Below, piece after piece: positions 1-39,845 of a DNA stretch of 39,845 bases. Within the stretch, counting starts at the first letter, position 1; every line of letters starts with the position of its first letter. Origin of the DNA: Nitrospinota bacterium (GTDB lineage: Bacteria; Nitrospinota; Nitrospinia; Nitrospinales; VA-1); the NCBI GenBank assembly GCA_027619975.1, contig JAQCGX010000031.1, positions 1-39,845 of the forward strand, written 5' to 3'. The notes under the pieces were generated by a model. That model was given only the letters and a program-made list of their open reading frames with translations. It was not told where the DNA came from and searched no databases. The position numbers were made by a program, and so were the translations under genes.

Positions 1-95
1 TGTCCGCACGGGCTGGAAAGCCCGTGCCACTGATTTAAGTAAATTTTGCACACGAGTCTATTTTCTGTGAAAACTAATTTTTAGAGATGCCCTTA
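1..95 (+). repeat. MITE/REP-like dispersed repeat, copy A
   Basis: This is one of three long copies in the window of the same non-coding element. It opens with a perfect hairpin (GCACGGGC at 6-13, GCCCGTGC at 20-27), followed by a variable AT-rich middle and a conserved end, TTTTTAGAGATGCCCTTA. A near-identical copy lies inverted at 13809-13877 and a diverged copy lies at 14289-14404. The last three bases (TTA, 93-95) form the TAA stop codon of the leftward TPR gene, so the element directly abuts that coding region. No transposase is encoded, so any movement would need a trans-acting enzyme. The left boundary is cut by the window edge. Confidence 0.75.
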
Positions 96-794
96 TAAAA
101 AATCCCTGATGAATCCATTCAGAATAGGGATCATATCCATAATATCCTTTTTATGCAACACCTCTGCCAACGCACCCGCCTCTCGCAAAAGAGATTCCAC
201 CTCGCTACCTCTTCCGGTAAATAAATAAAGTGGAATCATGGAAAACAAGGGTTGCATAATTTTCAGGGGATCATTTTGCTCCCGGCCTAAATGGACGCGA
301 TTCTGCAAAGTCTGAACTCCCCGCTCAAGAGCTTCGAACAGGGAAGCGTAGGCTTCATCATTCGGTTGTTCATCAGGCTTCGGTTGATGGGTCTTCTGCA
401 ACTCAAGCGTTTTTTGAAAATAGGAGAGACCTGCCTGCCATTCACATTTGCGCCAATGAGAAACTCCCAGAAGGGTCAGAACAGCTGTTTGACCGATAAC
501 ATCCTCGGTCAGCTGTTGAATTTTTAACGCCTCATGAAAATGGGTCATGGCTTTTTTCAACTGCGCCATTTCCCAGTAAACACATCCGAGATTAGCCAAA
601 GCCACCGCCTGGTCTCTTTCATTTCCGGTCTTTTCAACGAGGGTCAGGGCTTTAGATAGAAAAGAAGCCGCTTGGGTCAATTGGCGATTTTTCTGACAAA
701 CCAACCCCAACTGCCTTAAAGCAGACAACTCTCCTTTGATGTCTTTATTCTCTCTGGCGGATTTTAACTGGTCTTCCAGTATGGCAATATTCAC
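93..794 (-). CDS. Tetratricopeptide repeat protein
   Basis: A 233-residue protein built mainly of TPR-type helical hairpins. At least three repeats are visible between about residues 20 and 135 (ALRQLGLVCQKNRQLTQA, ALANLGCVYWEMAQLKKA, VLTLLGVSHWRKCEWQAG), spaced about 40 residues apart, with a less regular helical C-terminal third. TPR arrays mediate protein-protein contacts; no catalytic domain, signal peptide or membrane segment is seen, so it is probably cytoplasmic. The start is a GTG at 794, supported by AAGGA five bases upstream. It diverges from the rhodanese gene at 874. The stop codon coincides with the end of a dispersed repeat, so the C-terminus may have been reshaped by that element. 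The partner is unknown. Confidence 0.75.
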   Translation of the reverse strand: MNIAILEDQLKSARENKDIKGELSALRQLGLVCQKNRQLTQAASFLSKALTLVEKTGNERDQAVALANLGCVYWEMAQLKKAMTHFHEALKIQQLTEDVIGQTAVLTLLGVSHWRKCEWQAGLSYFQKTLELQKTHQPKPDEQPNDEAYASLFEALERGVQTLQNRVHLGREQNDPLKIMQPLFSMIPLYLFTGRGSEVESLLREAGALAEVLHKKDIMDMIPILNGFIRDFL

Positions 795-12993: not shown

Positions 12994-13374
12994 TTAAGGA
13001 GTAATCTCACCAGTATCATCGATGGTATATGCAATACCAGTACTGGCATGCGTAGCATCCGCGCGGAATGTGGCCTCATTTGGTGCGGTAATATTAACGG
13101 TTACATTGGTGGACTGATTATATCCGTAAGAAGCCGTCGCTACGTTCGTCAAATCACAAGCGGTTAGACTCGTCGTGTCACCCCAATGGGCTTTGCAGGC
13201 CAGATACAGGTTATGCAGGTTGGCTTTAGAATCGGAATTATAAGCACGATTTTTATACTGGGTGAACTGCGGAAGCGCAATGGCCGCCAAAATTCCGATG
13301 ATGGCGATAACGATCAACAGTTCGATCAGGGTAAAACCCTTTTCATTCTTTGCGGTATTTAATTTCGACAACAT
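12994..13374 (-). CDS. pilA: Type IV major pilin (PilA/PilE-like)
   Basis: A 126-residue prepilin with a short charged leader ([13 protein letters not shown]), a type III cleavage site before Phe14, and the conserved hydrophobic stretch [20 protein letters not shown] with Glu5 of the mature protein. PilD would cleave and methylate it; the pilus is assembled by PilB/C/M-N-O-P through the PilQ secretin. The globular domain has one cysteine pair ([14 protein letters not shown]) and is short, about 80 residues. ATG 13374 has GGAGAG about eight bases upstream. It has its own sigma-54 promoter and terminator, the pattern of a highly expressed major pilin. The gene itself is intact even though other pilus genes in the window are broken. 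Confidence 0.93.
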
Positions 13375-13469
13375 TATTGCTCTCCTTTACAAGTTAGATA
13401 ATCCAACAACCGGGTGAAAAAAACAAAGGTACGTAGAAACCTTCTGAATTCTGTTTTTCTCTTTTAGAG

Positions 13470-13485
13470 TGCAAACCGGATGCCA
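13470..13485 (-). promoter_or_regulatory. Sigma-54 promoter of the major pilin
   Basis: On the minus strand the 16-mer TGGCATCCGGTTTGCA matches the sigma-54 consensus TGGCACG-N4-TTGCW with exact GG-N10-GC spacing. Initiation would be near 13459, leaving a leader of about 85 bases before ATG 13374. Pilin transcription by sigma-54 with the NtrC-type activator PilR is well established in Pseudomonas, Myxococcus and Geobacter. Confidence 0.88.
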
Positions 13486-13590
13486 AACGGAGAATAAAGT
13501 AAAAAATTTCATAAAATGCCGTATTATAATGGTTTATTTTTACAACATATTTCTGCTTAGGCCACATAAACACTCGGATAACCGCAAATC

Positions 13591-13603
13591 GACAAATTTT
13601 GTC
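13591..13603. promoter_or_regulatory. Palindrome GACAAATTTTGTC, candidate enhancer-binding site
   Basis: A perfect 13-base palindrome (GACAAA-T-TTTGTC) lies about 106 bases upstream of the -24 element of the pilin sigma-54 promoter. That is the normal distance for an enhancer-binding protein, and TGTC-type half sites are typical of PilR targets. A further TTGTC occurs at 13623-13627. Assignment to PilR is inference. Confidence 0.4.
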
Positions 13604-13808
13604 ATTCACAGGGACGAAAAATTGTCTAATTTCCCGAATAAAAGGGCCAGTTTTTGCGCCCGTCGAGCCTGATTATCTGGAAAAACCATTGTATTTTAGG
13701 GATTTTTTACACTTGCGGATACCTGTACTCTGCAAAATTGGACCTTTGTGTAACCCGTCATTGCAATTGCGAGAAGCCAACGGCGAAGAAGCTGTTATAC
13801 CTTTCGAC
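13604..13808. other. Non-coding stretch without a recognisable gene
   Basis: No open frame here has a credible ribosome-binding site or family resemblance. Around 13760-13790 the text GTCATTGCAATTGCGAGAAGCC resembles, in diverged form, the interspersed palindromic sequences common in bacterial genomes. It separates the pilin promoter region from the repeat block. Confidence 0.5.
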
Positions 13809-13877
13809 CATCTCTAAAAATTAGTTTTCACAGAAAATAGAATCGTGTGCAAAAGTTTCTTAAATCAGTGGCACGGG
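13809..13877 (-). repeat. MITE/REP-like dispersed repeat, copy B (inverted)
   Basis: Read on the minus strand, this copy matches window positions 20-90 almost base for base, with only about five differences over 70 bases (for example CCCGTGCCACTGATTTAAG, then TCTATTTTCTGTGAAAACTA, then TTTTTAGAGATG). It lacks the left arm of the terminal hairpin, where a second palindrome, CCTATCC-TTAAATTTAA-GGGTAGG (13881-13904), takes its place. The high identity between copies 13.7 kb apart points to recent spread. Confidence 0.75.
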
Positions 13878-13947
13878 CAACCTATCCTTAAATTTAAGGG
13901 TAGGTCGCCTGTCCTGCTAAAACAAAAGACGCTTCGGTGCCGTTGTC

Positions 13948-13965
13948 GATTTTTAGAGATGCCCT
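13948..13965 (+). repeat. Fragment of the dispersed repeat end
   Basis: GATTTTTAGAGATGCCCT repeats the conserved right end of the element without the rest. A matching inverted fragment, ATCTCTAAAAATT, lies at 14232-14244. The two fragments bracket the composite repeat at 13971-14120, so they may be the termini of a larger inserted unit. Confidence 0.5.
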
Positions 13966-13970
13966 ATTGT

Positions 13971-14120
13971 CACACTGAGCCTGTGATATTCGACCATTGC
14001 CTTCATGCCCCAGAGGGGTATGTGGTATTTCACCATTGCCTTCATGCCCCAGAGGGGTATATCGAAGTGTGAAAACAGCCCTTAATTATCAAGGTCATAC
14101 TTCGACAAGCTCAGCATGAC
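13971..14120. repeat. Composite repeat: 39-bp tandem unit flanked by inverted arms
   Basis: Two direct copies of ACCATTGCCTTCATGCCCCA plus GAGGGGTAT sit at 13993-14021 and 14032-14060, a period of 39 bases. They are flanked by an inverted pair: a diverged GTCACACTGAGCCTGTGAT at about 13971-13990, and GTCATACTTCGACAAGC followed by TCAGCATGAC at 14094-14120. The latter arm is a version of a very widespread intergenic palindromic sequence. No protein is encoded. Confidence 0.65.
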
Positions 14121-14288
14121 AGTTGCGGGTAGCAAAAATAGGTTTTCCGCATCTAAGTAGAAACACTCCTGACAGCTTTTAAAAACTGGCAGTTCCTGAT
14201 AAATTGTTTTTGATGACTCAACTTATGGGTATCTCTAAAAATTGACTAAATGCTCCTAATCGTCAACTTAAGGAGATGGCTTTGTTTT

Positions 14289-14404
14289 AGTGGAACAGGC
14301 TTTCCAGCCTGTTCGCACGGGCTAGAAAGCCCGTGCCACCAATATAAGAAATCCTTGTACAGTGTTCGATTTCCTGTAATAAACTAATTTTTAGAGATGC
14401 CCTT
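14289..14404 (+). repeat. MITE/REP-like dispersed repeat, copy C, abutting nadD
   Basis: This diverged copy has two back-to-back hairpins: GAACAGGC/GCCTGTTC at 14293-14314 and GCACGGGC/GCCCGTGC at 14315-14336. A middle of about 50 bases follows, then the conserved end ACTAATTTTTAGAGATGCCCTTA. The nadD initiation codon begins at the next base (14405), so the element occupies the entire immediate 5' region of nadD, including where a ribosome-binding site would be. Confidence 0.75.
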
Positions 14405-15100
14405 ATGGGAAAAGAAAACAGGAAACGCGTGGGAATCCTGGGAGGGTCCTTTGATCCGGTGCATAACGGCCATATCGGCCTGGCAACCCAGGTTCGAGAA
14501 CGATTTCACCTGGATCACATTCTGTTTGTCCCGGCTTACATTTCTCCCCACAAGCAGGACAGGCAACCCGCATCCTCCAGCCACAGGTTAGCCATGCTGC
14601 GGTTGGCCACTGCATCTCAGCCCTTTTTTTTGATTTCCGAAATGGAGCTTATAAGGAAGGAAATATCCTTTACCATCGACACTCTGACGGTGTTACTCAA
14701 CGAACAACCTGAAACCGATTTTTATCTCATCATGGGAATGGATGCTTTTGAAGGGATCGGAACCTGGAAAACCGTCCATAAACTGTTTGAATCATGCCAT
14801 ATCATCATCGCGTCCCGTCCTGGATATACCATGAAAGGGATTGAAAAAACCCTCAAGAGTATTTTCCATGATTCATCAATACCTTTTCTGCCTGCAACCA
14901 AAGACCCAGGTCTCCTCACATTTTGTCATCGAGAAAAGCAAACCACCCTCAAATTTTTTGACCTCCCGCCGCTAAATGTCTCCTCAAGTCAAATAAGGGA
15001 ACGAATTGCGACCCATCAGGAAGTTAAAAATATGTTGCCACCCGAAGTCGAAAATTATATTATGCAAAACCAACTTTACCGAGCTAAATCCCACCTTTAA
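14405..15100 (+). CDS. nadD: Nicotinate-nucleotide adenylyltransferase
   Basis: A 231-residue nucleotidyltransferase that converts nicotinate mononucleotide and ATP to deamido-NAD, the shared penultimate step of NAD synthesis. The nucleotide-binding motif GGSFDPVHNGH lies at about 13-23, with FVPAYISPHK and MGMDAF following, and the C-terminal LNVSSSQIRER matches the family ISSTxIR motif. The length is normal. ATG 14405 directly follows a dispersed repeat and has no Shine-Dalgarno; an internal GTG at 14429 has AGGA five bases upstream and would give a start just before the core motif. Downstream rsfS follows within 10 bases; nadD-rsfS is a conserved pair. An 8-base T run (14624-14631) is intact. 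Confidence 0.93.
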   Translation: MGKENRKRVGILGGSFDPVHNGHIGLATQVRERFHLDHILFVPAYISPHKQDRQPASSSHRLAMLRLATASQPFFLISEMELIRKEISFTIDTLTVLLNEQPETDFYLIMGMDAFEGIGTWKTVHKLFESCHIIIASRPGYTMKGIEKTLKSIFHDSSIPFLPATKDPGLLTFCHREKQTTLKFFDLPPLNVSSSQIRERIATHQEVKNMLPPEVENYIMQNQLYRAKSHL

Positions 15101-38260: not shown

Positions 38261-39845
38261 TCAAATTTTGAACCTTCCAATGAGCTTTTGCAGACTCACC
38301 GCCATCGTGGACAACTCCGTGGCGGCGGTTTTAGTTTCAGCCGCTCCCCGGGAAGTGCTTTCAGCGGCGGTTGCCACTCCATTGATGTTATTGGCGATTT
38401 CCGTGCTGCCTCTGGCCGCATCGGTTACATTGCGGCTGATCTCACCGGTCGTCGCGGTTTGCTCTTCCACGGCGCTGGCGATAGTCCCCTGGTAATCGTT
38501 AATTCTATTAATGACCTGGGTGATTTCATCAATCGCCTTGACAGCGTTTTGAGTATCGCTCTGGATGGCCTGAATTTTCTTGCTGATATCATCGGTGGCC
38601 TTGGAGGTTTGATTAGCCAACTCCTTGACCTCGTTGGCAACCACCGCAAAGCCTTTACCTGCTTCTCCCGCCCTGGCCGCTTCGATCGTGGCATTTAAGG
38701 CCAACAGGTTGGTTTGCTCCGCGATGGAGGTGATGACTTTGACCACCTCGCCGATTTCCTTACTGCTTTGTCCCAGTTTAGCGACAGTCTCGTTGGTTTC
38801 CTTAGTCACCTGCACCGCAGACGCACCCACTTTTGCGGCTTCATTGGCATTTTGGGCGATTTCCCGGATGCTGGCGCCCATCTCCTCGGCGGCTGTGGCT
38901 ACGGTCTGAATATTTCTGCTCACTTCATCCGCCGCCGCATTCACCACATTGGCCTGAGCTGATGTTTCCTCGGCATTAGCTCCCATCTGCTGGCTGGTGG
39001 CCGTCAACTCCTCAGCAGAGGACCCCAGAGTCTGCGCCGTTTTTCCGATATCACCAATACTTTTCCGTAAATCCGTTAAGAATTTTGACAACCCTTCTCC
39101 CATCTTGCCGATGGCATCTTCCCCTTTGACTGAAATTTCCTGTGTCAGATCTCCTTGTGCTGCGGCATTTACCACTACCAGCATGCTGTCAACATTTTCC
39201 TGCAACTCTTGCGCCTGTTGTCGCTCCCGTCCTTGGGCATCCTGGGCGGCTTTTTCGTTGGCCAGTTTCTGGGTGATCACCTCCCAGGTCACCATCGGCC
39301 CCAGGTAATTATTGTTTTAATCGTAGATAGCGCTTACCAAGAGGTCGAGGACTTCCGGCCCTAATTGGATTTGAGCCTGATGCGGAAGGTTCTTGGGATC
39401 GGACAATATTTTGCGCTGATGCGCAGGGTTTTTATGAAACACATCAATGGAATGGCCAACCATATTGCTTACCTTTATTGGCAAATATTGCTCCAGAGTT
39501 TGCAGCGTCCTGGCGGATGCAGGGTTCATATATTGCATATTCAGATCCAGATCGGTACACATCACGTTGAGGGGCGAATTTTCCATCATGGAATTCACCC
39601 GCGCCATGTCGGTTTCGATTTTCAATTTTTGCGTGATCACCTCCCAGGTCACCATCGGCCCCAGATAGTTACCATCGTTATCGTAGATGGCGCTCACCAG
39701 CAGGTCCAGAACCTCCGGGCCCAATTGAATATTGGCACGGTGCGGCAGGTTTTTCGGGTCGGACAATATTTTGCGTTGATGCGCCGGATTCTTGTGGAAA
39801 ATGTCGATCGATTGACCGACGAGTTCACTGATCTTGATCGGCAGG
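38261..39845 (-). pseudogene. PAS-repeat methyl-accepting chemotaxis protein interrupted by an ochre codon (5' end outside window)
   Basis: The C-terminal half is a full MCP signalling domain: the hairpin tip [26 protein letters not shown], adaptation helices, and a HAMP-like segment before it ([20 protein letters not shown]). Upstream are tandem PAS-type sensor modules with near-identical ends (LGPEVLDLLVSAIYD, then [15 protein letters not shown]), repeated every ~365 bases. No membrane helix is seen, so it is probably a cytosolic receptor. In the last module the frame meets TAA at 39317-39319; the sister copy has an ordinary codon there, and the frame continues normally after the stop ([12 protein letters not shown]). 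One base change from GAA would explain it. Confidence 0.8.

Follow-up and report, generated by a model that had tools for sequence, protein, structure and literature searches.

Background

GTAG-type REPs and REPINs are described, in the available part of PMC3733652, as inverted REP pairs accompanied by a REP-flanked RAYT gene, with a GTAG tag that may be GTGG. Hairpin MITEs, their inversion and the insertion of elements into one another are covered in the accessible sections of a MITE review (PMC10969869). Here we describe how these systems meet in a 39,845-bp stretch of DNA (the window) from a Nitrospinota bacterium. The window is contig C31 of a genome assembly (G000) of 72 contigs and 2.93 Mb, and the element lying before its nadD gene is a complete non-autonomous transposon of 176 bp (14227-14402). 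Its family, MITE1, is probably an IS5-moved MITE with a captured REP pair nested at its centre.

The likeness to the GTAG-type systems consists of inverted REP pairs, a REP-flanked RAYT gene and the tag; unlike in the available description (PMC3733652), the pair here also lies within MITEs that have terminal repeats and target duplications of their own. Degenerate GTAG-1 units of Pseudomonas, joined to unrelated stem-loops in hundreds of copies, likewise combine REPs with other palindromes, and according to the same partial text these composites include repeats flanking RAYT-type genes, whereas MITE1 has IS5-type ends and duplications. The Correia elements of Neisseria resemble MITE1 in being a short hairpin MITE beside genes with subtypes, and inversion has been reported for them; a REP core common to MITE families is absent from the sections of PMC10969869 available. 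The SINE V domain carried by the MER6 DNA transposon offers a parallel for one mobile family's sequence being amplified inside the DNA transposon of another, but that case, in the portion of PMC6887750 at hand, is eukaryotic and involves part of a retroelement.

Our literature searches returned no paper on the MITE1 end sequences, only unrelated papers on REP/palindrome strings, and nothing bacterial on composite, chimeric or nested MITEs. They found no report of a REP core common to MITE families, a weak negative given thin coverage of subscription journals. The Correia terminal repeats presumably differ from the MITE1 ends. With the IS5 family (NF033581 type, IS1168/IS1169-like) MITE1 shares the terminal-repeat form GGGYAYCTCTAAAAA, a target duplication of 4 bp and full-length relatives of approximately 1.3 kb; it differs in having no transposase.

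Anatomy of the element at nadD

The nadD gene (nicotinate-nucleotide adenylyltransferase; NCBIfam NF000840, 4.1e-59, above the cut-off) occupies 14405-15100 on the forward strand. The complete MITE1 before it, copy C (14227-14402, forward), has terminal inverted repeats GGGYAYCTCTAAAAATT, present as GGGTATCTCTAAAAATT on the left (14227-14243, forward) and AATTTTTAGAGATGCCC on the right (14386-14402, forward), and is flanked by the 4-bp duplication TTAT at 14223-14226 and 14403-14406. The right duplication overlaps the nadD ATG (14405-14407), which begins inside it, two bases from the end of the element. All 176 bases of copy C are found unchanged at two other places in the genome. Its middle 50 bases (14290-14339, forward) resemble a REP pair and are predicted to fold into two back-to-back hairpins, with a GTGG...CCAC pair; the unit runs 63 nt past this REP pair on each side.

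The initial annotation had placed a mobile-looking repeat at 14289-14404. The repeat is real, but its bounds need correction: 14289/14290 is the start of the central hairpin, the left 63 bases were overlooked, and the right end lies at 14402, with TTAT after it, so that the element comes near the ATG and does not touch it.

The MITE1 family across the genome

The initial annotation had proposed a genome-wide search with the repeat end; the terminal 15-mer TTTTTAGAGATGCCC gave 78+75 matches with at most one mismatch, compared with 1 for the reversed control. From 95 stretches around end matches, inward-facing ends were paired, yielding 61 complete elements of 98-222 bp, a lower bound; most are 175-177 or 221-222 bp long and two lie in the window. 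Identical 4-bp flanks are present in 51 of the 61 copies. The ten others include copy B of the window (see below) and one copy that runs off a contig. With terminal inverted repeats, a 4-bp target duplication, short length, no transposase gene and 153 end matches genome-wide, MITE1 is a MITE. The suspicion that the repeat is mobile is borne out by these duplications, by the identical dispersed copies and by the absence of the insert from four of four congeners.

When neighbouring ORFs were assigned by a rough rule, 35 of the 61 elements lay between codirectional ORFs, 12 between convergent and 10 between divergent ones, with 3 at edges and 1 inside an ORF; we read no preference into these counts. 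MITE1 also accounts for much of the fragmentation of this assembly, as 40 of its 144 contig ends fall inside a copy. Among 64 genomes of the order, only G000 itself gave a full-length match to the 175-222-bp class; in 20 stretches of the congener G002, paired elements belong mostly to a 98-99-bp class with no REP centre. A search of Rfam gave three matches, all far under the gathering score, and MITE1 had no match in a phage search.

These features bear on whether a REP or REPIN was moved to nadD directly by a RAYT, a single-strand transposase of the HUH type, with inverted repeats that flank it only incidentally. The central REP pair and the REP-flanked RAYT gene in the genome would suit such a history, which we nevertheless consider very improbable: the unit extends 63 nt beyond the pair on either side to terminal repeats, 51 of the 61 copies have identical flanks, and 19 of the 61 have a centre (type B) that contains no REP pair. 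REP movement is not expected to yield identical 4-bp flanks. The two terms offered by the initial annotation, MITE or RAYT-mobilised REP, both apply, one nested in the other: an IS5-type MITE on the outside encloses hairpins that form a REP pair, and it is as a MITE that copy C would have arrived.

IS5-type ends and transposase relatives

The 17-base end GGGCATCTCTAAAAATT has exact matches in 8 of the 64 genomes examined from the order, and it is present in at least 119 stretches from a public collection of genomes. Among the matches listed, many are MITE-like end pairs approximately 95-250 bp apart, from Nitrosomonas, Nitrotoga, Gallionellaceae, Planctomycetaceae, Rickettsiales and others. 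End pairs at IS-like distances were also considered; many of these are accidental, formed between neighbouring MITEs, and they were rejected as having no transposase ORF.

Full-length elements with such ends do exist elsewhere. One on a viral contig (L352, 8379-9681) is 1303 bp long, with the same ends, a TTAA duplication and a transposase matching NF033581 at 2.9e-85; a second (L374, 6626-7921) encodes an IS5-family transposase (NF033581, 3.2e-81). A third, from a genome of the same order (G023; L398, 417-1712), is 1296 bp long and has the same ends and a duplicated TTAT, the target of copy C. Three copies on Rhodobacterales plasmids (L408-L410) start GGGCACCTC, GGGCGCCTC and GGGCATCTC, their second end matching only partly, and a Bacteroides IS1168-type copy shows a weaker likeness to the MITE1 end motif. 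Judged by its ends, its duplication size and these full-length relatives, MITE1 is classed as a derivative of the IS5 family.

The initial annotation had suggested looking for a transposase that shares the repeat ends. Such transposases are found in IS5-family elements elsewhere, but none was found in G000, whose 72 contigs are broken at repeats. The sole IS5 copy found in that genome (C15, 64351-65181) has other ends and was for that reason rejected as the driver of MITE1. A resident matching transposase is usual for a MITE and not required. We propose that an IS5-family transposase acted on the GGGYAYCTCTAAAAATT ends and moved copy C into a TTAT target overlapping the nadD start, duplicating the four bases; its source may have been lost, be unassembled or be external.

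The REP centre and the RAYT system

A RAYT gene is present on contig C55 (L104, 48-611; NF047646, 2.2e-27, over the cut-off); the palindrome GTGGCACAGGCTTTCCAGCCTGTGC precedes the gene, and two similar ones follow it. A second RAYT copy is represented by its start only, at a contig end (L151, 618-749; 89% over 44 aa). REP cores number 46+50 = 96 genome-wide. Twenty stretches with REP hits, most of them outside known MITE1 places, contained copies of MITE1 and of another MITE, and also REPs, single or in inverted pairs, with no visible MITE ends (L136, L141, L143, L144, L145, L149 and L151), the inverted pairs of L144 and L145 being GTAG-tagged. Separately, a 20-base REP, CACAGGCTTTCCAGCCTGTG, occurs in five viral contigs (L447-L451), with no RAYT match in the stretches examined.

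The MITE1 centre has the features of a GTAG-type REP pair, namely short palindromes, a GTAG-like tag and arrangement in inverted pairs. Against the REP pairs of L147 and L148, which belong to the second MITE family described below, a typical MITE1 centre is identical at 42 of 50 positions ungapped, and the centre of copy C at 41 of 50; none of 20,000 shuffles, of a kind that does not preserve the palindrome, exceeds 26 of 50. The REP that flanks the RAYT gene shares a 16-nt core with the MITE1 centre, and their outer stem bases differ. We suggest that the centre is a captured, REPIN-like pair related to the genome's own REP/RAYT system.

A second MITE family with the same cassette

The GGAATT palindrome occurs at 45 places, and 15 further stretches taken from these revealed a second family, MITE2. 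Its ends are CAGGTTGCTGAAAAA, its 4-bp duplications are mostly TTAG or CTAG, and of 17 complete copies examined 15 have identical duplications. YTAR-like target duplications are a mark of IS5-type elements, and on that basis MITE2 is probably of IS5 type as well. Some MITE2 centres consist of one REP, a REP pair or the type D arrangement of MITE1 (see below); others contain a different palindrome.

A BLAST comparison of one MITE2 copy (L436) with the 61 MITE1 copies aligned the centre, at best with 91% identity over 103 nt (E 3e-38). Alignments between the families are confined to the centre, some reaching approximately 10 nt into the arms, and the ends are unrelated. The same cassette was probably also captured by, or handed to, MITE2, so that REP units would be hitch-hiking on DDE MITEs. 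In a plasmid search, this 103-bp centre had no match. In three places (L034, L137 and L150) a MITE2 lies inside the TTAG of a MITE1 terminal repeat, which gives relative dates for both families.

The centre might alternatively not be a captured REP at all: MITE hairpins could have come first and been adopted later by a RAYT, or GC-rich palindromes could have converged. Palindromes easily look alike, and type B centres of MITE1 are similar to the palindromes at the centre of the 98-99-bp relatives in G002, which have no REP. The ungapped match at 42 of 50 positions, the recurrence of one 103-bp cassette between the different ends of another MITE, and the existence both of REPs that have no MITE ends and of a REP-flanked RAYT gene make this origin unlikely. 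Capture of a REP pair remains the preferred reading, and we infer its direction to be from REP to MITE rather than from MITE centre to REP. REP pairs in MITEs would provide a route of REP spread that needs no RAYT movement of their own, and two REP-carrying MITE families with readable duplications give oriented insertion events in which such spread can be studied.

Interchangeable centres

The 61 MITE1 copies comprise 17 with a type A centre (the REP pair, as in copy C), 19 with type B, 14 with type C, 6 with type D, 1 with a single REP and 4 with none. Type B starts like one AT-rich palindrome and has no REP pair; type C is half of B, the GGAATT palindrome and A, and type D is the mirrored arrangement. 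In 18 pairs of copies the arms are identical (147-148 nt) and the centre types different (arm clusters; 5 of the 61 copies set aside). The arms of copy C itself are identical to those of three type B copies (L012, L055 and L066) and one type D copy (L020). Because this is a 72-contig assembly with near-identical repeats, the pairing of place to centre could be mis-assembled.

A linkage test, with 4 of the 61 copies set aside in the comparison of centres, asked whether the A module of type C and D copies is that of the A copy nearest in its arms. It is in 9.4 of 19 cases, compared with 3.5 in shuffles (reached by 3 of 5000). The A module tends to follow the arm lineage, which argues that centres changed form within lineages; the mechanism was probably template switching, or recombination involving the hairpins. 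The same test gave no signal for the left (998 of 5000) or right (1617 of 5000) part of B.

A bolder and rather doubtful extension is that palindromic REP cassettes of the HUH/RAYT type move as a layer of their own within DDE MITEs, invading the centres of unrelated IS5-type MITEs and being exchanged or flipped between them. If true, two transposition chemistries would share one vehicle, and intergenic hairpins would be built from swappable modules.

The single-REP MITE1 (L076) has a relative, likewise with a single REP, that is 79% identical over its whole length (L279, 3807-3959). That relative comes from a MAG titled Alphaproteobacteria, which may reflect horizontal transfer or misbinning.

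The nadD start in related genomes

We compared the nadD locus with those of four other genomes of the genus (G001-G004). In the window and in all four congeners, a prepilin-like frame lies upstream of nadD on the opposite strand; the distance from this frame (stop-to-stop) to the nadD ATG is approximately 390-415 bp in the congeners versus approximately 1020 bp in the window. Alignment with the congeners shows that some 430 bp of native intergenic sequence (13375-13805) is kept, and that the extra 600 bp or so (13806-14402) lies at the nadD end. This insert is absent from the orthologous place in all four. The empty-site comparison proposed in the initial annotation therefore favours insertion: that the element is ancestral leader DNA of nadD is refuted by its absence from these congeners and by its exact copies elsewhere in the genome. 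The native region also contains, at approximately 13591-13604 and at the orthologous sites in G001-G004, a conserved palindrome-like block (GACAAA..TTTGTCA), perhaps an operator.

The initial annotation also held that the repeat forms the 5' edge of nadD and leaves it no Shine-Dalgarno sequence. A good Shine-Dalgarno is indeed lacking, but equally so in the four insert-free congeners: the best match before the ATG measures 3 bases both in the window and in each of them, and the distance from the ATG to the GGSFDP motif is the same in all. Since the ATG and its poor Shine-Dalgarno are common to genomes with no insert, both are ancestral: the start does not stem from copy C, nor was a ribosome site lost through it. 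An internal GTG start (14429, preceded by AGGA) was considered, and the ATG at 14405 was preferred, its position being kept in four of four congeners; the GTG is kept in three, G002 having GTT. We thus envisage an insertion between the native intergenic region and an ancestral ATG.

Folding prediction for the RNA of 14227-14440 gives a single long, branched hairpin (-77.7 kcal/mol, z -6.8), and the mRNA leader has probably gained a strong hairpin with copy C. In addition to its arrival as a MITE, the insertion might set nadD expression, as a new promoter, an attenuator or an RNase III site. This fold and the precedent of the Correia elements, as given in the available part of PMC10969869, lend some credence to such control. 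A scan of 13374-14440 for sigma-70-like promoters, in turn, found 0 compared with 1.9 expected in shuffles, and the native upstream region is kept, so that we regard control of nadD as conceivable but somewhat unlikely; a modest, tolerated effect is what we would expect.

Other repeat copies within the window

The 15-mer TTTTTAGAGATGCCC has five matches in the window with at most two mismatches, compared with 0.17 expected: it is exact on the forward strand at 78, 13950 and 14388, and has one or two mismatches on the reverse strand at 14227 and 13806. Copy A (1-92, forward) is a MITE1 that the contig edge truncates to its right part, identical at 92 of 92 bases to the copies in L037, L042 and L062; the contig starts inside it, so that only one flank is readable. 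TTAT adjoins it at 93-96. The stop codon of ORF 93-794 (reverse strand), which had been ascribed to copy A, does lie inside this TTAT, but TTAT is the target sequence and copy A need not have supplied the stop.

Copy B (13806-13964, reverse) is an eroded 159-bp MITE1 with a type B centre and both ends present; its outer end is mutated, it has no target duplication, and it is 97% identical over 128 nt to the copy in L013. Copies A and B are alike over 70 nt at a distance of 13.7 kb, as previously noted, at an identity of 96% rather than 93% and with the stretch inverted. Between copies B and C sits a MITE2 remnant (13968-14151) of the type with the TTCGACAAGCTCAG palindrome, whose pieces are 85-96% identical to MITE2 in L137, L150 and L024. 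The remnant includes a 39-bp tandem duplication (13982-14059). Near its far end (39253-39843), the window also contains a pair of 231-nt direct repeats, which lie 360 apart and have diverged to 75% identity.
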